Source of the DNA: a bacterium | GTDB taxonomy: Bacteria > Auribacterota > UBA3054 | Reading direction: 5' to 3' | Assembly (NCBI GenBank): GCA_017554565.1 | Contig: JAFZID010000059.1 | Coordinates: forward strand, 1 to 34,748 | DNA length: 34,748 nt | Shown: in pieces, positions 6,675 to 18,919 of the stretch | How the letters are laid out: each line of letters starts with the position of its first letter | How positions within the stretch are numbered: position 1 is the first letter of the stretch | Translations under genes and position numbers: made by a program | Notes under the pieces: generated by a model | The model's input: the letters and a program-made list of their open reading frames with translations, nothing else | Database searches by the model: none | Told to the model about the DNA's origin: nothing

Positions 6675-8354
6675 TCATATGTCTTCCTCCCAGTTCCTGG
6701 CAAGAAGCTTCGCGGCGTAGGATTGCGCCTCCTTCTCGTTTCCGCCGAGCATCCTGGCTAATTCCGTTTTCCGGGAGGTCTTGTCAAGCTTGCGGATCCT
6801 GACGAAGGAATCGTTCCTTTCCACGCTTTTCTCCACGCTGTACTGGACGTCTCCGCAGGCCGCTATGACGGGCATGTGGGTGATGACGAAGACCTGGTGT
6901 TCTTTCCCCAGAAGCCTCATCCTTTTGCCGATGGAAGCCGCCACCGTGGCGCTTATGCCGGCGTCTATCTCGTCGAAGAACAGGATCTGCACGGCGTTGC
7001 CGCCCAGGGAGAGGCATTTCAGCGCCAGCGTCAGGCGGGAAAGCTCGCCCCCGGAGGCGATCTTCTGCAAAGGCATGAAGGGCTGGCCCACGTTGGCGAT
7101 CATGTATTCCACGCTCTCCGATCCCGTGCTCTGGATCTCCTCCTGCTTTTCCAATTCGACCTTGAAGCGCATGCCGCTCATGCCGAGGGGCGCGATCTCT
7201 TTTTCCAGGGCCTTCGAGAAGGCCGGGGCGGCCTTGGCGCGGGCCTTCGACAGTTTGCCGGCCTTATCTTCCAGCTCCGCCTGAAGCTTTGCGATCTCCT
7301 TTTCCAGGCTGGCTTTCCGCTCGTCGAAGGATCCGCCCTCCTCAAGGCGGGCCTTGATCCTGCCGGTCTCCTCCAAAAGCTCTTTCACGCCGCCGCCGTA
7401 TTTCTTTTTCAGATCGTTTATGAGGGCCAGTCTCTCCTGCACCCTTTCCAATTCCTCCGGTTCGGCGTTGATCCTGCCGAGGGATCTTTCGGCCTCGGAT
7501 CTCAACTCTTCCAAGGATCCGATGACGTTCAGGAATTGCTCTTCCCACTCCTCAGCGGGAGCGTAATATCCCGAGAGCTGCCTGAGGGAGCGGTTCGCCT
7601 GCTTCAGGCCGGAAAGGGGGCTGCCCTCCTCTTCGCTGAGAGCGCTTTCCAAAGAGCTCAAAAGCTCACGGATCTCCTCCGCGTGGGAAAGATTTTTTTC
7701 CTGTTCCAGAAGCTCCTCTTCCTCGCCTTCCCTCAGCCGGGCCTGCGAGATCTCTTCGACCTGGAAGCGCCAGAGCTCCTCCTGACGCATTAGCTCGCGC
7801 TCCCTGGCCAAGTGTTCGTCGAGTTCGTTTTGCAAAGCTTTGCGCCGGAAATAGAGTTCCGCCACCTCGCCGGCCAGTTCGCCAACGCCCGCGTAGTGAT
7901 CGAAGGAAAGGCGCTGCCAGGCCCTCTTCGTAAGGGACTGCTGGGCGTTCTGGGAATGGATGTCCACGGTCTCGGACATCAGTTCCAGAAGTTTTTTCAC
8001 GCTGACAAGGCGATCCGCGAAGAAAGCCGCGCCCCGGCCGTTGGAATTTATCTCCCGCCGGACTATGAGCGGCTCGTCGATGGAAACGTCGAAACCGTCT
8101 TCCAGAAGGGCGGCCACCCTGTCCTCGTCGACGCCCTTCTCAAATTCGAAAACTCCCTCCGCCACGGCCTTGTCGCAGCCGTGCCTGATCTGGGAGACGT
8201 CGGCTCTCTCGCCCAGAAGCAGCTGGATGGAACCCATGACGGTGGATTTGCCGGCGCCGGTCTCGCCGGTTATGGCCACGATCCCCTTGGGGAACTCCAC
8301 GTCTATGAGGCTCACCAGAGCCAGGTCCTTGATGCGCAGTCGCGTCAGAAACAT
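6675..8354 (-). CDS. recN: DNA repair ATPase RecN
   Basis: SMC-like protein of double-strand break repair. The 559-residue sequence shows Walker A GETGAGKST at residues 30-38, HSQNAQQSL (usual form HGQ.EHQ.L) after it, long heptad-rich arms from about 165 to 390, the ABC signature ASGGELSRL, Walker B ILFFDEIDAGIS and the His switch VITHMP. It lacks an obvious Shine-Dalgarno and is 30 bases downstream of the small exported-protein gene, so it may depend on that gene's promoter. It heads the repair and metabolism block that continues to recG. Confidence 0.95.
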   Translation of the reverse strand: MFLTRLRIKDLALVSLIDVEFPKGIVAITGETGAGKSTVMGSIQLLLGERADVSQIRHGCDKAVAEGVFEFEKGVDEDRVAALLEDGFDVSIDEPLIVRREINSNGRGAAFFADRLVSVKKLLELMSETVDIHSQNAQQSLTKRAWQRLSFDHYAGVGELAGEVAELYFRRKALQNELDEHLARERELMRQEELWRFQVEEISQARLREGEEEELLEQEKNLSHAEEIRELLSSLESALSEEEGSPLSGLKQANRSLRQLSGYYAPAEEWEEQFLNVIGSLEELRSEAERSLGRINAEPEELERVQERLALINDLKKKYGGGVKELLEETGRIKARLEEGGSFDERKASLEKEIAKLQAELEDKAGKLSKARAKAAPAFSKALEKEIAPLGMSGMRFKVELEKQEEIQSTGSESVEYMIANVGQPFMPLQKIASGGELSRLTLALKCLSLGGNAVQILFFDEIDAGISATVAASIGKRMRLLGKEHQVFVITHMPVIAACGDVQYSVEKSVERNDSFVRIRKLDKTSRKTELARMLGGNEKEAQSYAAKLLARNWEEDI

Positions 8355-8384
8355 TTCGGGAGGGCGGATGGAAAGTTGGGAAAT

Positions 8385-8846
8385 TTACTTGGCTTCCTCA
8401 GCCTCGGCGTTCTCCTCCACAGCCTTCGCTTCCGGAGGATTGTTGGGGATAAGGTCGTATTTCTCCACCGTGTCCATGGAATGCTTTATGTAATTGGACA
8501 GCCAGTCGGAATGCTCGGGGTAGAAATAACCGAGAGTCAGGGTGTCGAAGATGCCCTCGAGCAGGAACGGCGGGGCCAGGAAGGTTCCGATGACCGCTCC
8601 GCAGGTCAGGCTGGCGGGAATGGTGTAGGGAAGCGTCAGGGCCGAGCGCCAGTCGTCGTTGGCCACGTCCACGTTGATCACGGTGGAGCCTACGCCGCAG
8701 AGAAGGGGAAGAAAAACGGATTCGCAAATGGCCGCGGGACCGTAAATGAGATTCTGGCAGCTCCACTGGTTGGTGGAGGCGTTTTCTTCGGCCAGGGCCG
8801 AGCAGGCGATGAGAAGCGCCAGGGCGATGTGAAGAAGATTTTTCAT
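8385..8846 (-). CDS. Small exported protein of unknown function
   Basis: Not recognised. 153 residues with a Sec signal peptide (MKNLLHIALALLIACSALA, cleavage probably after ALA). The mature part has two short hydrophobic stretches (SVFLPLLCGVGSTVINV; SLTCGAVIGTFLAPPFLLEGIFDTLTLGYFYP) and an acidic tail rich in Glu and Ala. The pattern of Pro, Leu, Asp, Thr before a Tyr-rich turn faintly recalls small YceK-like envelope lipoproteins, but no lipobox Cys is present at the right place and the resemblance is weak. It has its own predicted promoter (8887-8895) and a clear GAGGAG ribosome-binding site, and is followed after 30 bases by recN. Confidence 0.7.
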   Translation of the reverse strand: MKNLLHIALALLIACSALAEENASTNQWSCQNLIYGPAAICESVFLPLLCGVGSTVINVDVANDDWRSALTLPYTIPASLTCGAVIGTFLAPPFLLEGIFDTLTLGYFYPEHSDWLSNYIKHSMDTVEKYDLIPNNPPEAKAVEENAEAEEAK

Positions 8847-8886
8847 GATTTGTTCTCCTCTTGTTATGAATTTGATTATTTTTATT

Positions 8887-8895
8887 ATTATATCA
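8887..8895 (-). promoter_or_regulatory. Extended -10 promoter of the 8846 to recG run
   Basis: On the minus strand the bases read TGATATAAT, a consensus -10 with the TGN extension. No convincing -35 is found 16-18 bases upstream. The predicted start of transcription is about 34 bases before the ATG at 8846, leaving room for the GAGGAG site. It may drive the whole run down to recG because no terminator is seen in between. Confidence 0.6.
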
Positions 8896-8979
8896 TAATC
8901 GCCCCGGCTTAAAACATTAAGGCTAAAATTCTTCCGAAGCCTCTCTTCAAAAGGCGAGGGGCTGCTTTTTTCCGGGCAT

Positions 8980-9004
8980 AAAAAAACGCGGTGGATGCCG
9001 CGTT
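8980..9004 (-). terminator. Rho-independent terminator after radA
   Basis: Read on the minus strand: a 7-bp stem (AACGCGG with CCGCGTT, 8985-8991 and 8998-9004) with a 6-base loop, followed directly by a run of seven T (8980-8986 complement). It starts 2 bases after the radA stop codon. Confidence 0.8.
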
Positions 9005-9006
9005 GA

Positions 9007-10410
9007 TCATTCCTGCGCTTTCTTGTTCTTCAGATCGGGCAGCGCTTCCCTGATGGCCTGGGCGGCGTCCGCGCAGCCCACCAGGGTCATGCCGTTCCAT
9101 TCGACTTCCGAGCGGCCTTTTTCCCTGAAGCTCTTCAGGTTGTGGGCCGGCATGATGCAGCGTTTGAAGCCCAGTCTGATGGCCTCCATGACGCGTCTTT
9201 CCACCTGGCTCACGGCCCGCACTTCGCCGCCCAGGCCCACTTCGCCCATGATGACGGTGTCCTCCGCCACGCAGACGTCGAAATAGGAGGAGGCCACCGC
9301 CGCCAGGAGCGCCAGGTCCATCCCGGGCTCGTCTATTTTAAGGCCGCCGGCGATGTTGACGTACACGTCGGTGGCGCTGATGGGGATGCCGATCCTTTTT
9401 TCCAGCACCGCCAGGAGCAAAAGAAGCCTGTTGGGATCGCAGCCCAGGGCTTTCCTGGCGGGCGTCCCGTAGGGCGCCTTGGCGCAGAGGGCCTGGACTT
9501 CCATCAGTATGGGGCGTGTGCCTTCCAAAGAAGTGCCCACCGCCGAGCCGCTGTTCTTGGTCAGGCGCTGGGCTAAAAATATCGCCGAGGGATTCTTCAC
9601 TTCCACCAGTCCCCTGCCGGTCATTTCAAAAACGCCGATCTCGTCGGTGGAGCCGTAGCGGTTTTTCACGCTGCGCAAGATCCTGTAGATATTGTGCCTT
9701 TCCCCTTCGAAATACAAGACCGTGTCCACCAGGTGCTCCATGACCCTGGGGCCGGCTATGGCGCCGGATTTTGTCACGTGGCCCACGATGATCACGATGA
9801 TCATCTCCTGCTTGGCGAAGCGCACCAATTCCGCGGTGCACTCCCTCACCTGGGCCACCGAGCCCGGGGCGCTGCTGATCTCGCCGTCGTACATGACCTG
9901 GATGGAGTCCACCAGAAGCACCGCCGGGCGGCGCTCCTTCGCTTCCTGCAAAAAAGCCGCCACGTTCGTTTCCGACATGATCCAGATGTTGGGATTGCTT
10001 ATCCCCAGCCTGTCGGCGCGCATTTTCGCCTGGGCTCTGGACTCCTCGCCGCTGACGTACAAAACTTCCGCTCCCGGCTTCGCCAGGGCCTGGGCGATCT
10101 GCAAAAGCAGCGTGGATTTTCCAATGCCCGGGTCGCCGCCTATCAGCAGGACCTGGCCCGCAACCAGTCCGCCGCCGCAGATGCGGTCGAATTCGCTGAT
10201 GTCGGTGGGATGGCGTTTCTCGCCGGCGGAGACCACTTTCATGAGCTGCTCGGCGGGCGAGGAGGAAACCACGACGGACTTCTCTTTCTTCTCTTCGCCG
10301 ATCTCCTCCACCATGGTGTTCCACTCGCCGCAGCCGGGGCACTGGCCCAGCCACTTGGGGCTCTGGGCGCCGCATTCCTGGCAGACGTAGATCTTCTTTA
10401 TCTTCGCCAT
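9007..10410 (-). CDS. radA: DNA repair protein RadA
   Basis: RadA is a hexameric ATPase that drives branch migration during recombination. The 467 residues contain the N-terminal C4 zinc finger (Cys10, Cys13, Cys24, Cys27 in YVCQECG and CPGCGEW), Walker A GGDPGIGKST, the RadA-specific KNRYGSTDEIGVF motif, and a C-terminal Lon-protease-like domain. Every diagnostic element is intact. It begins 3 bases after the stop of the QueE-like gene, so the two are almost certainly one transcript, and is followed by a terminator. Confidence 0.96.
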   Translation of the reverse strand: MAKIKKIYVCQECGAQSPKWLGQCPGCGEWNTMVEEIGEEKKEKSVVVSSSPAEQLMKVVSAGEKRHPTDISEFDRICGGGLVAGQVLLIGGDPGIGKSTLLLQIAQALAKPGAEVLYVSGEESRAQAKMRADRLGISNPNIWIMSETNVAAFLQEAKERRPAVLLVDSIQVMYDGEISSAPGSVAQVRECTAELVRFAKQEMIIVIIVGHVTKSGAIAGPRVMEHLVDTVLYFEGERHNIYRILRSVKNRYGSTDEIGVFEMTGRGLVEVKNPSAIFLAQRLTKNSGSAVGTSLEGTRPILMEVQALCAKAPYGTPARKALGCDPNRLLLLLAVLEKRIGIPISATDVYVNIAGGLKIDEPGMDLALLAAVASSYFDVCVAEDTVIMGEVGLGGEVRAVSQVERRVMEAIRLGFKRCIMPAHNLKSFREKGRSEVEWNGMTLVGCADAAQAIREALPDLKNKKAQE

Positions 10411-10413
10411 AGG

Positions 10414-11028
10414 TCAGTCCGCCTCTTTTTCCGCCTTAGCCAAAGCGTGGTCCAGCCTTTCCCCCAGGCGGTAGCTGTATTTCAGGCATTCCTTGGAAAG
10501 GAAGGAGAGATTGTCCAAATATTCCTCGAAGGTGGCGCCGGTGGGCACGAAAAAGATCCTGGTCCGGGGAATGCTGTGCTCCGAGAGGGCTATGAAAGTC
10601 TCCCTCAGGTCTATCTCGTCTTCGATGTAGATCCTGAGCTCCACCTCTTTCCCGGCCTGAAGGTAGTTTTCAATGTTTGACTTCGGCCAGGACAGCCTGC
10701 CGAAGGAAGCGGCGCCCCTGCAGTTGAGGTCGAGGGAAAAGAGGTCCGCCTCCAGGTCAAGGTATTCGCCGCCGTCGCTTTCAACGACGACGTGGCGGTA
10801 AAGATCCCTGATCCCTTCCGTCAGGACCTTCAGCTCTTCTATCTGAGAGGACAGTTCGCCGGTCAGGACCACGTAGCGCATAACGCTTTTCTCGGCGGTC
10901 TTCAAAAGCTCGTCCACCTTCATTTCAAAGCCGCCGCTCTCTTTTTCGCCAAAGCAGAAAAAGAGCGCGGGCATTCCCAAAAGCGTGCCCTTGGTTATCA
11001 GTTCCTCTTTGATCTCGATCAGTTTCAT
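10414..11028 (-). CDS. QueE-like protein lacking radical SAM motifs (probable non-radical paralogue)
   Basis: 204 residues whose length and landmarks parallel 7-carboxy-7-deazaguanine synthase (QueE): EI then GTLLGMPALFF (residues 14-24, cf. QGEGxLxGxPxxFxR), VVLTGELSSQ (53-62, cf. VVxTGGEPLLQ), VVVESDGG (80-87, cf. ETNG), DLFSLDLN (95-102, cf. the SPKL strand), and FFVPTGATFEEYL through LGERLD (159-193, cf. LMPEGTTxEELL...SPRLH). The segment that should carry CxxxCxxC is deleted to CFGEKESGG, and GGEP has become GELS. The only cysteines are 25, 103 and 181. It therefore cannot bind the usual cluster or SAM loop. A TTG at 11040 would add four residues; ATG at 11028 is preferred because the similarity begins there. 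Function unknown; co-transcribed with radA. Confidence 0.72.
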   Translation of the reverse strand: MKLIEIKEELITKGTLLGMPALFFCFGEKESGGFEMKVDELLKTAEKSVMRYVVLTGELSSQIEELKVLTEGIRDLYRHVVVESDGGEYLDLEADLFSLDLNCRGAASFGRLSWPKSNIENYLQAGKEVELRIYIEDEIDLRETFIALSEHSIPRTRIFFVPTGATFEEYLDNLSFLSKECLKYSYRLGERLDHALAKAEKEAD

Positions 11029-11064
11029 ACGCTCGCTCAAATAAAAAGTTTTTATTCTTGTCTA

Positions 11065-11073
11065 ATTGTAGCA
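11065..11073 (-). promoter_or_regulatory. Extended -10 promoter of the QueE-like/radA operon
   Basis: Minus strand reads TGCTACAAT. The predicted transcript starts about 30 bases before the ATG at 11028. The -35 region is poor, as in the other extended -10 promoters of this window. Confidence 0.6.
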
Positions 11074-11091
11074 AAACCGCAAAGGCTGAAT

Positions 11092-11112
11092 AAAAAAGGA
11101 AGGAGCCGCTCC
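11092..11112 (-). terminator. Weak terminator after the GT2-GtrA gene
   Basis: On the minus strand a short GC stem (GGAG, loop CGG, CTCC, at 11102-11112) is followed by a T-rich tract ending in six T (11092-11097 complement). Short stem, so only a tentative call; position between the end of one gene set and the promoter of the next fits. Confidence 0.4.
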
Positions 11113-11128
11113 CGGTTTCGCTAGATGA

Positions 11129-12232
11129 TCAAGCCCGTTTCGGTTTTCCCTTGAAGACGCTTTTGGAACGGAAAATAAGAAAATGCTGGATGGCGAAGCT
11201 CAGGAAGAACAGCGTGCCTTCCACCAAGATCTTGGCGATGATGGGATGAATCCCGAAATGCTTGAGGCCCCTTATGCCGAAATAGGAGGCGGTGAAGAGG
11301 AAGATCGCCAGCAAAAAGAAGAGAAAGGACTGTCTCAGCCAGTGACCCTTGGATCCGAAGACGGCTTCCTTGTCCAGGACGAAATTCACGCTGCAGCTGA
11401 TTATCCTGGCGGTAAGGAGGCTCCAGAGGATGGAGGTGCGCCCCAGGATCATCCTGTCCTGTCCCAGGGAAAGGATCATGACGGAAAAAATCAGGAAGTC
11501 TATGACGCTGCTTATGACGGAGGCGCCGATGAACTTGAAGAAGATGGCGTAGATCCGGATGGAGTCCTTGACGGGGTTGAAGTGGGAGCTGGGGTTGTTC
11601 TCTTCATAAACCGTGGTGATGGGGACCTGCTGGATCTTTCCCTGGCCGCAGCGGAAGAAACGCAGGAGCGCTTCCAGCTCGAATTCATAGCGGTCCGGCT
11701 TTATTTGAAGAGCCTCCTGCATGAAGTCCCGGGGATAAACTCTCAAACCCGTCTGGGTGTCCTTGAGAGCCGTGCCGGTGAAGAGTTTGAAAACTTTTTC
11801 CGTCAGGTTGTTTCCGAAGCGGCTGCGCCAGGGTATCTTCACCTCGAGCGTGCTGAAGTCCCGGACGCCCAGGACGTAGTCCGTTTGATGCTCAAGGAAA
11901 AACGCCAGGACTTTCCCGATGTCAACGGGAAGATGCTGGCCGTCCGCGTCCACCGTCACGGCGCCGAGAAGATCATTGCCTTCTTTTTCCAAAAGATAGC
12001 GGAAGGCGGTCTTCATGGAGGCGCCTTTGCCTTTGTTCTCCTGATGGCGCAGGAGCCGGCAGCCCTCGATTTTTTCGATCTCCGCGAAGGTCTCCTTCGT
12101 CCCCTCTTTCCTGGAGCCGTCGTCAACCACCACCACGCCTTTCAACTGGGATATTCTGACGACCTCCCTGACGAGTCCGGGAAGGGAAGGCAGCGGCTCG
12201 TAGGCCGGTATCACGGCGTAAAGCGACGGCAT
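11129..12232 (-). CDS. Family 2 glycosyltransferase fused to GtrA-like membrane domain
   Basis: Residues 1-225 form a DPM1-type GT2 domain: VIPAYEP start, VVVDDGS nucleotide-sugar motif, and DADGQH (the DxD metal site), with the YEFELEALLRF segment typical of polyprenyl-phosphate sugar transferases. Residues from about 235 to 355 give four hydrophobic helices with the GtrA pattern (FKFIGASVISSVIDFLIF, SVNFVLDKEAVF). The fusion suggests synthesis of an undecaprenyl-phosphate-linked sugar on the inner leaflet and its passage across the membrane for glycan modification. Its start is preceded by GGAG lying in the end of the upstream gene. The donor sugar cannot be told from sequence. Confidence 0.88.
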   Translation of the reverse strand: MPSLYAVIPAYEPLPSLPGLVREVVRISQLKGVVVVDDGSRKEGTKETFAEIEKIEGCRLLRHQENKGKGASMKTAFRYLLEKEGNDLLGAVTVDADGQHLPVDIGKVLAFFLEHQTDYVLGVRDFSTLEVKIPWRSRFGNNLTEKVFKLFTGTALKDTQTGLRVYPRDFMQEALQIKPDRYEFELEALLRFFRCGQGKIQQVPITTVYEENNPSSHFNPVKDSIRIYAIFFKFIGASVISSVIDFLIFSVMILSLGQDRMILGRTSILWSLLTARIISCSVNFVLDKEAVFGSKGHWLRQSFLFFLLAIFLFTASYFGIRGLKHFGIHPIIAKILVEGTLFFLSFAIQHFLIFRSKSVFKGKPKRA

Positions 12233-12235
12233 GCT

Positions 12236-13234
12236 TTATTTCTCCTTTTGCGCGCCGGAGGGCTCCGGCGTTTTTATGACCTCGTCCGCAGGATAGACCT
12301 GCACTCCGTGGAAATAGACTTTTCCGCGCTTTTTGCCCCTGCTGTGCTCGCAGCGCAGCGTCAGCGTCAGGTCGCAGTCGGCGTTGGGCGTTATTTTGGC
12401 GGAACCCCTCTGCCAGGCTCCCCTGGCGTTGCTGGAAAACTTGAGGTCTCCGCCGCGGCGGCCGCCGTCGTTATAGGAATAGCGGACGTTGGCAATGCGC
12501 TCCACAGGCCGGTTGTCGTCCATCAGGGCGTAGGCGCATACGACGTAGGGAACGCCTTTTTTTACTTTGACCGTCTGGGAGGCCGTGAGGACCACGTTGC
12601 TGGACTGAAGGAACATCAGAGTGGGGACTCCGCGTTTGTCGAAGCATCTGAAATCGTTTCCGTCCACGCCGGCCCAGAAGCTCGTCCCCTGGGAAAAGTC
12701 TCCGTTCGCCACCAGGTTCGTCACCAGATTCCCCTCCTCGGCGCACAATTCCGACTTGGAAAAAGGCTTGGCGCGCTTAAGGGAGAGGTCGCGGACGTCC
12801 ACGGGAGAATTTTTGCCCGCCACCAGCCTGAAGGAGCGTTTGTCGGCGTATTCGAAGATGGGGAAGCGGAACCGCACCGTCCGCCACTCGGAGTTGGTCA
12901 CGGCTATGACGGCGTGGGTGTGGTTGTCCATGCGGAAGGTCAGGCGGCCGTTGGGATTCTTGGCCCTGGCCTCGAAGCTTGCTTCGCACACTTCGCTTGG
13001 CGCGAGCCCCGAAAGGAAGAACTGGCAGATCTCCCCTCCCGGGACTATGGCCATATAAGCCATCTCGCCTTCCTCTTCCGGCGTCACTATCTTGGCGTCG
13101 CTGGCCTTGGCGTACTGCCAGAAAGCCTGTCCCCTGGCGAAGCGGCCGTTGGAAAGAAGATTGGGGCGGTAGAAGAAAACGTAGAGGGCGTAGAGCGCCA
13201 GTATTCCCGCGATGAGAGCCAGAGCTTTTTTCAT
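12236..13234 (-). CDS. Membrane-anchored protein with two carbohydrate-binding-like modules
   Basis: 332 residues. One N-terminal hydrophobic helix (residues 4-20) acts as signal or anchor. Two similar units follow: the first opens with LLSNGRFARGQAFW, the second with LVANGDFSQGTSFW, the opening typical of jelly-roll carbohydrate-binding modules of the CBM4/9 type; each continues as beta-rich sequence of about 140 residues. No catalytic motif was seen. A GGAGGT Shine-Dalgarno precedes the ATG. Its place between a polytopic membrane protein and a polyprenyl sugar transferase suggests it binds or presents a surface glycan. Function beyond binding is not supported. Confidence 0.65.
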   Translation of the reverse strand: MKKALALIAGILALYALYVFFYRPNLLSNGRFARGQAFWQYAKASDAKIVTPEEEGEMAYMAIVPGGEICQFFLSGLAPSEVCEASFEARAKNPNGRLTFRMDNHTHAVIAVTNSEWRTVRFRFPIFEYADKRSFRLVAGKNSPVDVRDLSLKRAKPFSKSELCAEEGNLVTNLVANGDFSQGTSFWAGVDGNDFRCFDKRGVPTLMFLQSSNVVLTASQTVKVKKGVPYVVCAYALMDDNRPVERIANVRYSYNDGGRRGGDLKFSSNARGAWQRGSAKITPNADCDLTLTLRCEHSRGKKRGKVYFHGVQVYPADEVIKTPEPSGAQKEK

Positions 13235-13237
13235 ATC

Positions 13238-14536
13238 TTACCTCCAGCTCCAGGTGAATATGAGGCGCTGCAGGTATAAAAGTCCGCAGTAGGCGTGCAG
13301 CAGGAACAAGCCCGCGGTCAGGGCCGCCGGCCAGCTCATCTTTGGGAAATTGTCCTCCTCGGAGAAGAAATTCAGTAGCGAGGCCAGAAACAGCGCCGCC
13401 ACGGCCACCGGGATCTGCCAGGTGAAGTTGAGATGCGTCCGGTGGACGGTGTCCTGGCTCAAGGTGTAGGCGATCACGAAGGAAATGAGCAAAGTCAGCC
13501 AGCCGAAGACCAGAAGTCCGTCTTTCTTCCTTTTGGAGACGAAAAAGGCGGCGGCGGGGAAAGCCAGGCCGCAGATCATCGTCAGGGGCTTGTAGAAGAC
13601 AAGGTACCAAAAAGTCTGCCAGGAGCCCTTGATGGCGGCGAAGCTGCTTCCCAGAAGGCGCTCCGCCATCAGATTGAGATTGCGGTCGAAGTCGATGTGA
13701 AGAAGATGGCTCTGGATGGCGAAGGGCAGGGAGATCATGACGTTGTCCCTTACGCTCTTGGTCACGGACTTCAGATAGAAGATCCCTATAAGGACCGGGA
13801 CCGCCACGAGGAGGGCGATCAGCAGACGCTTCAGGGTGAAGTTCAGTGAGAAATTACCCTCTTCGTCCGCCCTGAGGAAAGTGAGGGAAAGAAAGATCGC
13901 CGGAGCCCAGGCCAGGATATAGCTTGGTTTGGAGAACAAATTAAGGACCGCCAGGACCGCCAGGATCAGAAAATTTTTCAAAGACTTTTCCCTGACCGTC
14001 AGGCATCCGAAGTAAAAGAGCAGAAGCCCGAAGGGCATGACCGCCACCGTGGTGGGGTTGTGCCAGACGTTCATCCGCAGGACGTCCGCCTGCCAATATC
14101 CGGAGACCAGCTGCGGGAAAGCGATGATGTGACCGCCCAGGCAAAGCAAAACCACGGCGGCGCGCAAAACGAAAAGTTCCGCTCTCTCCTCCTTTCCCTG
14201 CCTGGAGAAATAATCTATCGAGATGCTTCTCAATACGATATATTTCAAGGCCAGCATCAGGGAGAGGAAGCAGACGTAGCCCAGGGGGAAATTTTTCCGG
14301 GAAAAGAAACCGAGAACATACGACGCTATCCTTGTCATGGCGTCGTAGGACGGGCGGAACAATTCCGACTTGTCGAAGATGACGATGGTCATGGACCGCA
14401 TGTGCCAGAACATGTCAACCTGGACGCGGTACATGGTATTGAAAATGAAAAGCCCGAAAAGAAAAAAGAGCAAAGCGATGACAACGTCGCTCCATTTCAG
14501 GCGGACTTTTTCATTACTGAAAAGATAACTTAACAT
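13238..14536 (-). CDS. Polytopic membrane protein, possible GT-C type glycosyltransferase
   Basis: 432 residues with about ten hydrophobic helices, starting with VVIALLFFLFGLFIF (residues 19-33). After the first helix comes RVQVDMFWHMRSM, with Asp and His at the outer face as in many GT-C enzymes that use lipid-linked sugars. A loop with HNPTTVAVMPFG and another with FSKPSYILAW are also typical of that superfamily's loose pattern. No family signature is definite. It heads a three-gene set with a CBM-like protein and a GT2-GtrA fusion, so a role in envelope glycan assembly is inferred. The ATG lies 8 bases from a consensus -10, predicting an almost leaderless mRNA. Confidence 0.65.
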   Translation of the reverse strand: MLSYLFSNEKVRLKWSDVVIALLFFLFGLFIFNTMYRVQVDMFWHMRSMTIVIFDKSELFRPSYDAMTRIASYVLGFFSRKNFPLGYVCFLSLMLALKYIVLRSISIDYFSRQGKEERAELFVLRAAVVLLCLGGHIIAFPQLVSGYWQADVLRMNVWHNPTTVAVMPFGLLLFYFGCLTVREKSLKNFLILAVLAVLNLFSKPSYILAWAPAIFLSLTFLRADEEGNFSLNFTLKRLLIALLVAVPVLIGIFYLKSVTKSVRDNVMISLPFAIQSHLLHIDFDRNLNLMAERLLGSSFAAIKGSWQTFWYLVFYKPLTMICGLAFPAAAFFVSKRKKDGLLVFGWLTLLISFVIAYTLSQDTVHRTHLNFTWQIPVAVAALFLASLLNFFSEEDNFPKMSWPAALTAGLFLLHAYCGLLYLQRLIFTWSWR

Positions 14537-16643: not shown

Positions 16644-16659
16644 AAGAAAATTGCAAAGC

Positions 16660-17037
16660 ATGTATCGCCTGAAAGTCCAATACGCATTCAGCGCGGCCCA
16701 TAAGGTCACGCTGCCAGACGGGACGGTGGAACGTATCCACGGTCACAATTGGAAACTGGAAGCCGTCCTTGCCTCCGAAACGCTGGATCGTTTCGGCATG
16801 GTGGCGGACTTCGAGGCGGTGAAAAGCATGCTGAAAGACAAGATAGGAACGAAACTTGATCACGCGTTCCTTAACGAGACCGGCCTCTTTCCCGAGAACG
16901 CCGCCACCTGCGAAAACGTCGCCAAATGGATCTACGGCGCGCTGGCGGCGGAAGCGGGGAATTTGAGAGAAGGCCTCGTTTTGGAAAGCGTAACGCTTTG
17001 GGAGTCTCCCGGCTGCGGAGTCACCTATTCCGAATAA
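16660..17037 (+). CDS. PTPS-III type 6-pyruvoyltetrahydropterin synthase homologue (folate synthesis, FolB replacement)
   Basis: 125 residues of the T-fold PTPS/QueD family. Zinc ligands are His14 (FSAAH) and His27/His29 (IHGH); the conserved Glu near the C-terminus is in LWESPGCG. The catalytic Cys found a few residues before HGH in QueD and PTPS is absent; instead Glu24 gives E-R-I-H-G-H, the ExxHGH signature of PTPS-III. That group is known to make 6-hydroxymethyl-7,8-dihydropterin directly from dihydroneopterin triphosphate, replacing FolB. So folate, not queuosine, is the more likely pathway. ATG at 16660 is chosen over an in-frame TTG at 16651 because family similarity begins there. It follows aconitase by 16 bases. 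Confidence 0.85.
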   Translation: MYRLKVQYAFSAAHKVTLPDGTVERIHGHNWKLEAVLASETLDRFGMVADFEAVKSMLKDKIGTKLDHAFLNETGLFPENAATCENVAKWIYGALAAEAGNLREGLVLESVTLWESPGCGVTYSE

Positions 17038-18148: not shown

Positions 18149-18919
18149 ATGTCATTCGTCATAACCACCTACGTGCCCGACGGCATCGTCATGGCCGCCG
18201 ACAGCCGCATGACCGCCCTCGCCCAGGGCACCGCTCCCGACGGCCAGGCTCTGCCTGACGTCAACATCGTCATTTCCGACCACTGCGACAAGATCTTCTT
18301 CCTGGAGAACCAGGGCATCGGCATCAGCGCCTTCGGAGATCCCATGCTGGGCGGCAAGCCCGTCAGCCACGCAATCAGGCTCTTCGAAGAGGAAGCCAAC
18401 AATCCCGGCGACGGCATAATGGACGTGGTCAACAACCTCATGAGCTTCATGAGCTCCCGCTATCCCAACGCCAACACCTCCTTCCACGTGGCGGGCTACG
18501 CCATGGAGAACGGCGTCAGCGTTCCCCACGTTTACCACTGCCAGATCTCCCAGAACATCATCAAGAGATTGAATCTCAACGACCGCAACGGCGAAATAAA
18601 CTACGGCACCTCCTGGGGAGGCCAGGGCGACATCATGGCCCGCCTCATAAACGCCAGGGCGCTGGTTCCCACCAACGGCCCCCAAAAGGACGACAAGGTC
18701 CCCATGGCCGAGCTTCCCAATTTCCCCGTCAGATGGGACATCATGCCGCTTATCGACGCCATCGACTTCACCGAACTGGCGGTGGACATCACCATCCAGA
18801 TGCAGCGTTTCCAGATGCGTCCCCAGGATGTGGGCGGAGCCATCGACATGCTCCTCCTGACGCCCAAGGGCTCGGATTGGCTCTACAAGAAACAGTTCAC
18901 CGCGCATGATCGCGATTGA
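18149..18919 (+). CDS. Proteasome/HslV-like Ntn-hydrolase-fold protein with putative Ser nucleophile
   Basis: 256 residues. The N-terminus, once Met is removed, aligns without gaps with HslV and proteasome beta subunits: Ser in place of Thr1, then GIVMAADSRMT matching the Asp17 and Thr21 region. Later DKIFFLENQGIGISAFGD matches the Lys33 strand and the following sheet. The C-terminal GGAIDMLLLTPKG is like the GGxIDxLxI motif of stand-alone bacterial Ntn proteins. A Ser or Thr directly after Met can serve as the nucleophile without a propeptide. Substrate and oligomeric state are unknown; no HslU or other ATPase is nearby. Its 3' end overlaps the radical SAM gene by 14 bases. Confidence 0.7.
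   Translation: MSFVITTYVPDGIVMAADSRMTALAQGTAPDGQALPDVNIVISDHCDKIFFLENQGIGISAFGDPMLGGKPVSHAIRLFEEEANNPGDGIMDVVNNLMSFMSSRYPNANTSFHVAGYAMENGVSVPHVYHCQISQNIIKRLNLNDRNGEINYGTSWGGQGDIMARLINARALVPTNGPQKDDKVPMAELPNFPVRWDIMPLIDAIDFTELAVDITIQMQRFQMRPQDVGGAIDMLLLTPKGSDWLYKKQFTAHDRD

Follow-up and report, generated by a model that had tools for sequence, protein, structure and literature searches.

The gene at positions 10414–11028 (minus strand) of the window, the whole 34,748-nucleotide stretch of DNA analyzed here, encodes a 204-residue protein (ATG at 11028, stop codon at 10414–10416) that an earlier note took for a relative of the tRNA-modification enzyme QueE, the 7-carboxy-7-deazaguanine synthase, without its radical SAM cysteines. 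The locus raises the question of whether a QueE deprived of its chemistry is still a selected protein, and whether its position beside radA says anything about what it does.

Homology and active-site residues

Single-sequence searches with the 204-residue protein give no match in Pfam or in the PDB, and the sole NCBIfam match is the QueE model TIGR04349 (residues 31–163, E=0.02), far under the cut-off (14.6 bits vs. 300), a narrow one that 0 of 14 control genomes passed. The homology is resolved by profiles built from relatives rather than by the single sequence. Orthologues with 51–99% identity are present in seven of the eight genus genomes, and matches at 22–30% identity in all seven genomes of the order's other families; in the phylum sample of 44 genomes, no relative was found at E≤1e-8 among the 29 genomes of the other orders, and viral contigs and plasmids contain none. 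The genus is a lineage of uncultured bacteria from the ruminant gut, with RGIG9765 from yak omasum and RGIG7520 from water buffalo jejunum among its members. The order-level matches are canonical QueE proteins, with QGEG, CxxxCxxC, TGGEP and the C-terminal LLWN..G all present. Comparison of the genus profile with a canonical QueE profile (hhalign) gives 99.8% probability end to end (E=4.5e-30, 188 columns, 23% identity), the canonical profile in turn retrieves the gene at E=5e-22, and the two sets align collinearly from the first residue to nearly the last, which confirms the proposed kinship. The likeness to canonical QueE (PDB 6NHL, 5TGS, 4NJG) thus spans the whole length, and canonical genes of the order occupy the same slot upstream of radA. 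Run against the PDB, the genus profile by itself finds nothing; once mixed with canonical QueEs it matches 6nhl, 5tgs and 4njg, a result that speaks only for the family of the mixture, and an AlphaFold2 model from three sequences (a shallow alignment) has a mean pLDDT of 40 and is too poor to use.

Canonical QueE has the CxxxCxxC motif, an Mg-binding Thr, Gln, Glu and Arg substrate residues, GGEP and LLWN..G, whereas the genus protein has none of these. A single 14-residue deletion between residues 28 and 29 (10942–10947, minus strand), common to all seven orthologues, takes the Fe-S- and Mg-binding loop with all three [4Fe-4S] cluster cysteines and the following Asp/Thr. The cysteine columns are gapped in 7/7 and no orthologue has a CxxxCxxC, as the earlier note had read for this one; the loop region is shortened relative to every canonical QueE in the comparison and contains no cysteine. 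In the 204-residue protein, I, K and C stand where QueE has Q11, E13 and R25. Genus-wide, the positions matching Q13, E15 and R27, which bind the substrate in Escherichia coli QueE, and its Mg-binding T40 (PMC11142719) are I, K/S, C/A/V/T/S, and deleted; the single cysteine that had been remarked on, C25, occupies the substrate-binding Arg site and is not conserved. The reduced GGE motif was likewise read correctly: the SAM-contacting TGGEP is represented by a TGEL remnant (residues 56–59; 10852–10863, minus strand), and its position in the genus reads TGE-L, KGG-L/M/V or AGGDI, in no case GGEP. The C-terminal LLWN..G is lost throughout, final Gly included.

Seven residues invariant in 10 aligned canonical QueEs are kept genus-wide (G18, P20, F23, G57, E83, P162 and R187). 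The genus also has a segment of its own, EDEIDLRET (residues 136–144; 10597–10623, minus strand), with nine consecutive invariant residues, of which E136, E138, I139 and T144 are absent from all canonical QueEs compared. The explanation that the protein has no kinship to QueE, or that a frameshift or assembly error hides the cysteines, could draw on the weak single-sequence searches, but it is refuted for practical purposes by the profile comparison and synteny, and because seven separate assemblies have the same deletion with both flanks in frame; its probability is negligible.

Descent and the radA neighborhood

The gene is followed, after a gap of 3 nt (10411–10413; 1 nt in the other genus clade), by the ATG of a complete radA (9007–10410, minus strand) with a zinc ribbon, a KaiC-like ATPase and a Lon-like C-terminus. 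The junction with radA pointed out in the earlier note recurs in the genus: the QueE-derived gene adjoins radA upstream in all six genomes with radA on the contig (gap 1–3 nt), the seventh contig ends at the junction, and the eighth genome (G005) has only part of radA, cut off where a contig ends, a break that explains its missing orthologue match. The two genes are co-transcribed and probably translationally coupled. A promoter belonging to the QueE-derived gene had also been proposed, and the upstream scan gave no sigma-70-type match.

Five of the six order relatives that could be tested have canonical queE as the gene immediately upstream of radA, in the same orientation (L078, L080–L083); in the exception (G014) the two genes are on different contigs, and no radA was detected in G009. 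The canonical queE–radA gap is about 110–465 nt in four of the five, and a 104-codon frame within the 426-nt gap of L082 is probably spurious. In two order relatives (G010, G011) queC is just upstream of queE. In a tree, the seven genus sequences cluster together (support 100/99) among the canonical QueEs of the order, with a long stem branch (1.76 changes per column); the exact branching order with those QueEs is unresolved, and the long branches are flagged. Together, synteny and tree favor vertical descent over horizontal replacement, which is rejected, as is a paralogue beside canonical queE. The gene is thus shown to descend vertically, and in place, from canonical queE, whose copies in the order's other families are its positional orthologues, and the deletion common to both genus clades points to a single ancestral loss.

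Because canonical queE already immediately precedes radA in the order's other families, the radA neighborhood is inherited, and a linkage that predates the loss of chemistry need not mean function. Adjacency to radA is by itself poor evidence for a repair role, and the link is weaker than the first reading had it; the suggested tie to DNA repair is not borne out, as the queE–radA arrangement is older than the non-radical form. What is new in the genus is the tightness of the junction (1–3 nt), which shows joint expression only.

Several other features are present in this neighborhood. A small protein without Pfam match (8385–8846, minus strand) is conserved, its gene separating radA from recN in every genus genome seen. 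Across about 6675–14536, proteins upstream of radA are 99–100% identical to those of L076 (G006), while RadA is 97%, a PPIase 84% and RecN 80% identical, and this abrupt step suggests recombination near radA. In the second clade a conserved protein of ~224 residues without Pfam match is encoded upstream of the QueE-derived gene (L072:8175–8849, L073:16885–17556, L074:8900–9577 and L075:10103–10780), where the window has a glycosyltransferase. A 256-residue protein without Pfam match (18149–18919, plus strand) is 96–98% identical in the two nearest genomes, a conservation above that of many neighbors.

The queuosine pathway in the genus

The canonical QueEs of the order relatives coexist with QueC, whereas genomes with the non-radical protein have none: searches of the genome contigs found QueC above cut-off in 0/8 genus genomes vs. 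7/7 order relatives, and eight independent misses at 83–93% completeness are not credible. A canonical QueE elsewhere in the genome was also searched for, and the canonical profile finds none in any genus genome; the other weak matches inspected belong to glycyl-radical activases or to further radical-SAM proteins. Tgt and QueA are each present in 8/8 genus genomes. Strong matches to the YhhQ/QPTR family, which includes the E. coli preQ0/preQ1 transporter (PMC5372724, PMC11130926), occur in 5/8 genus genomes, with 0/7 strong and one weak match among the order relatives. With QueC and canonical QueE missing, Tgt and QueA universal, and the strong YhhQ/QPTR matches, the most economical reading is that the lineage appears to have moved from synthesis of queuosine precursors to their salvage, given the specificity we infer for the transporter. 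Precursor-using gut bacteria (QPTR/YhhQ salvage; PMC11130926, PMC5372724) likewise have Tgt and QueA, no QueC/QueE activity, and a YhhQ-family transporter. Such genomes are scored on whether QueE is present or absent, and none of the papers found describes a non-catalytic QueE that is kept under selection.

The strong YhhQ/Vut_1 transporter genes are at L125–L128 (G001, G003, G004, G006 and G007), the family being absent or weak in the order, and the transporter was probably gained with the shift to salvage. No riboswitch was found in the window or at these transporter loci, where the only matches are to sRNAs, sub-threshold and taken as chance. The window also encodes a 6-pyruvoyl-tetrahydropterin-synthase (PTPS) family protein (16651–17037, plus strand) that is PTPS-III-like, with no catalytic Cys ahead of HGH (TVERIHGHNW, with a Glu nearby instead). 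A second genus copy (e.g. L057, L060, L061) has the Cys (KCSSLHGHDY), and both kinds of PTPS are also present in the order.

Selection and candidate roles

The QueE-derived gene is under purifying selection for an altered protein and shows no relic decay, in keeping with its earlier description as intact and selected. Nei-Gojobori dN/dS is 0.152 for G000–G007 (dS 0.83), 0.134 for G001–G004 (dS 1.08) and 0.161 for G002–G004 (dS 0.53); between-clade pairs are near saturation and were not relied on. At similar closeness recN gives 0.09–0.18 and radA 0.04–0.07, such that the gene is recN-like and above radA. All seven orthologue frames are open at synonymous distances from 0.5 to saturation, and of simulated neutral 204-codon frames about 1% remain open after 0.25 changes per site.

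On balance, the protein is probably a pseudoenzyme with a non-catalytic binding or regulatory role. The Fe-S/SAM/substrate site of QueE was lost before the genus diversified, with QueC also lost, and purifying selection has since maintained the remaining scaffold for a function at the protein level. It may act by binding or regulation, from the same mRNA and with the same timing as RadA, on a partner that may be RadA, a division protein or something else, through a surface that probably includes the invariant EDEIDLRET segment, and the role perhaps continues a second, non-enzymatic function of the ancestral QueE. It is rather doubtful that this second role was in RadA-dependent DNA repair or recombination and that the genus, on losing queuosine synthesis, kept only that, in a radical-SAM-derived pseudoenzyme acting as a dedicated RadA-coupled regulator of repair or division.

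The closest precedent for a QueE scaffold with a role not needing queuosine synthesis is that of E. coli, which is a cell-division inhibitor (PMC11142719, PMC4974570) and whose R27A variant is dead for queuosine synthesis and still blocks division (PMC11142719). However, E. coli QueE retains enzyme activity, whereas the genus protein lacks the radical-SAM residues, and filamentation by the E. coli protein needs an E45–W67 insert and C31/C35, all absent from the genus protein. A division inhibitor of the E. coli type would be found at the Z-ring and, at high abundance, would stop septation. In the open-access literature, we found no described QueE without its cysteines and nothing linking QueE with radA. 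With QueE chemistry and pathway gone and the protein still selected, evolution has in effect done the separation experiment, and a non-catalytic role of the QueE scaffold becomes directly testable. Genome surveys can mislead if a hit to the QueE family is taken as a sign of queuosine synthesis, or if the protein is assumed to be gone wherever the pathway is.

Other roles are less probable. The barrel cavity could have been re-purposed for a small molecule such as a pterin, deazapurine or nucleotide, as a sensor or for new non-radical chemistry, and residues conserved in canonical QueE are retained (G18, P20, F23, G57, E83, K/R132, P162 and R187) in a genus where two pterin-making PTPS-family enzymes remain. 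However, the substrate residues Q11, E13 and R25 and the C-terminal LLWN..G are gone with no new conserved catalytic set evident, and several of the lineage-specific invariant residues lie in one acidic segment that is more surface-like, which makes re-use of the cavity unlikely. Continued service in queuosine metabolism, e.g. in partnership with Tgt or the precursor transporter, would suit a genus whose genomes all have Tgt and QueA and often a YhhQ-family transporter, but tgt, queA and the transporter are not adjacent, being on other contigs or far off, and this role is improbable.

It is more improbable still that the gene is a decaying relic kept only for its translation to drive that of radA. 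The 1–3 nt junction would be expected of such a relic, and identity between the clades is about 50% (vs. 87% for RadA) with a long stem branch. Against this, dN/dS is about 0.15 even in close pairs, no frame has closed, and the run of nine invariant residues is at odds with a role in translational coupling, which would not preserve amino acids.
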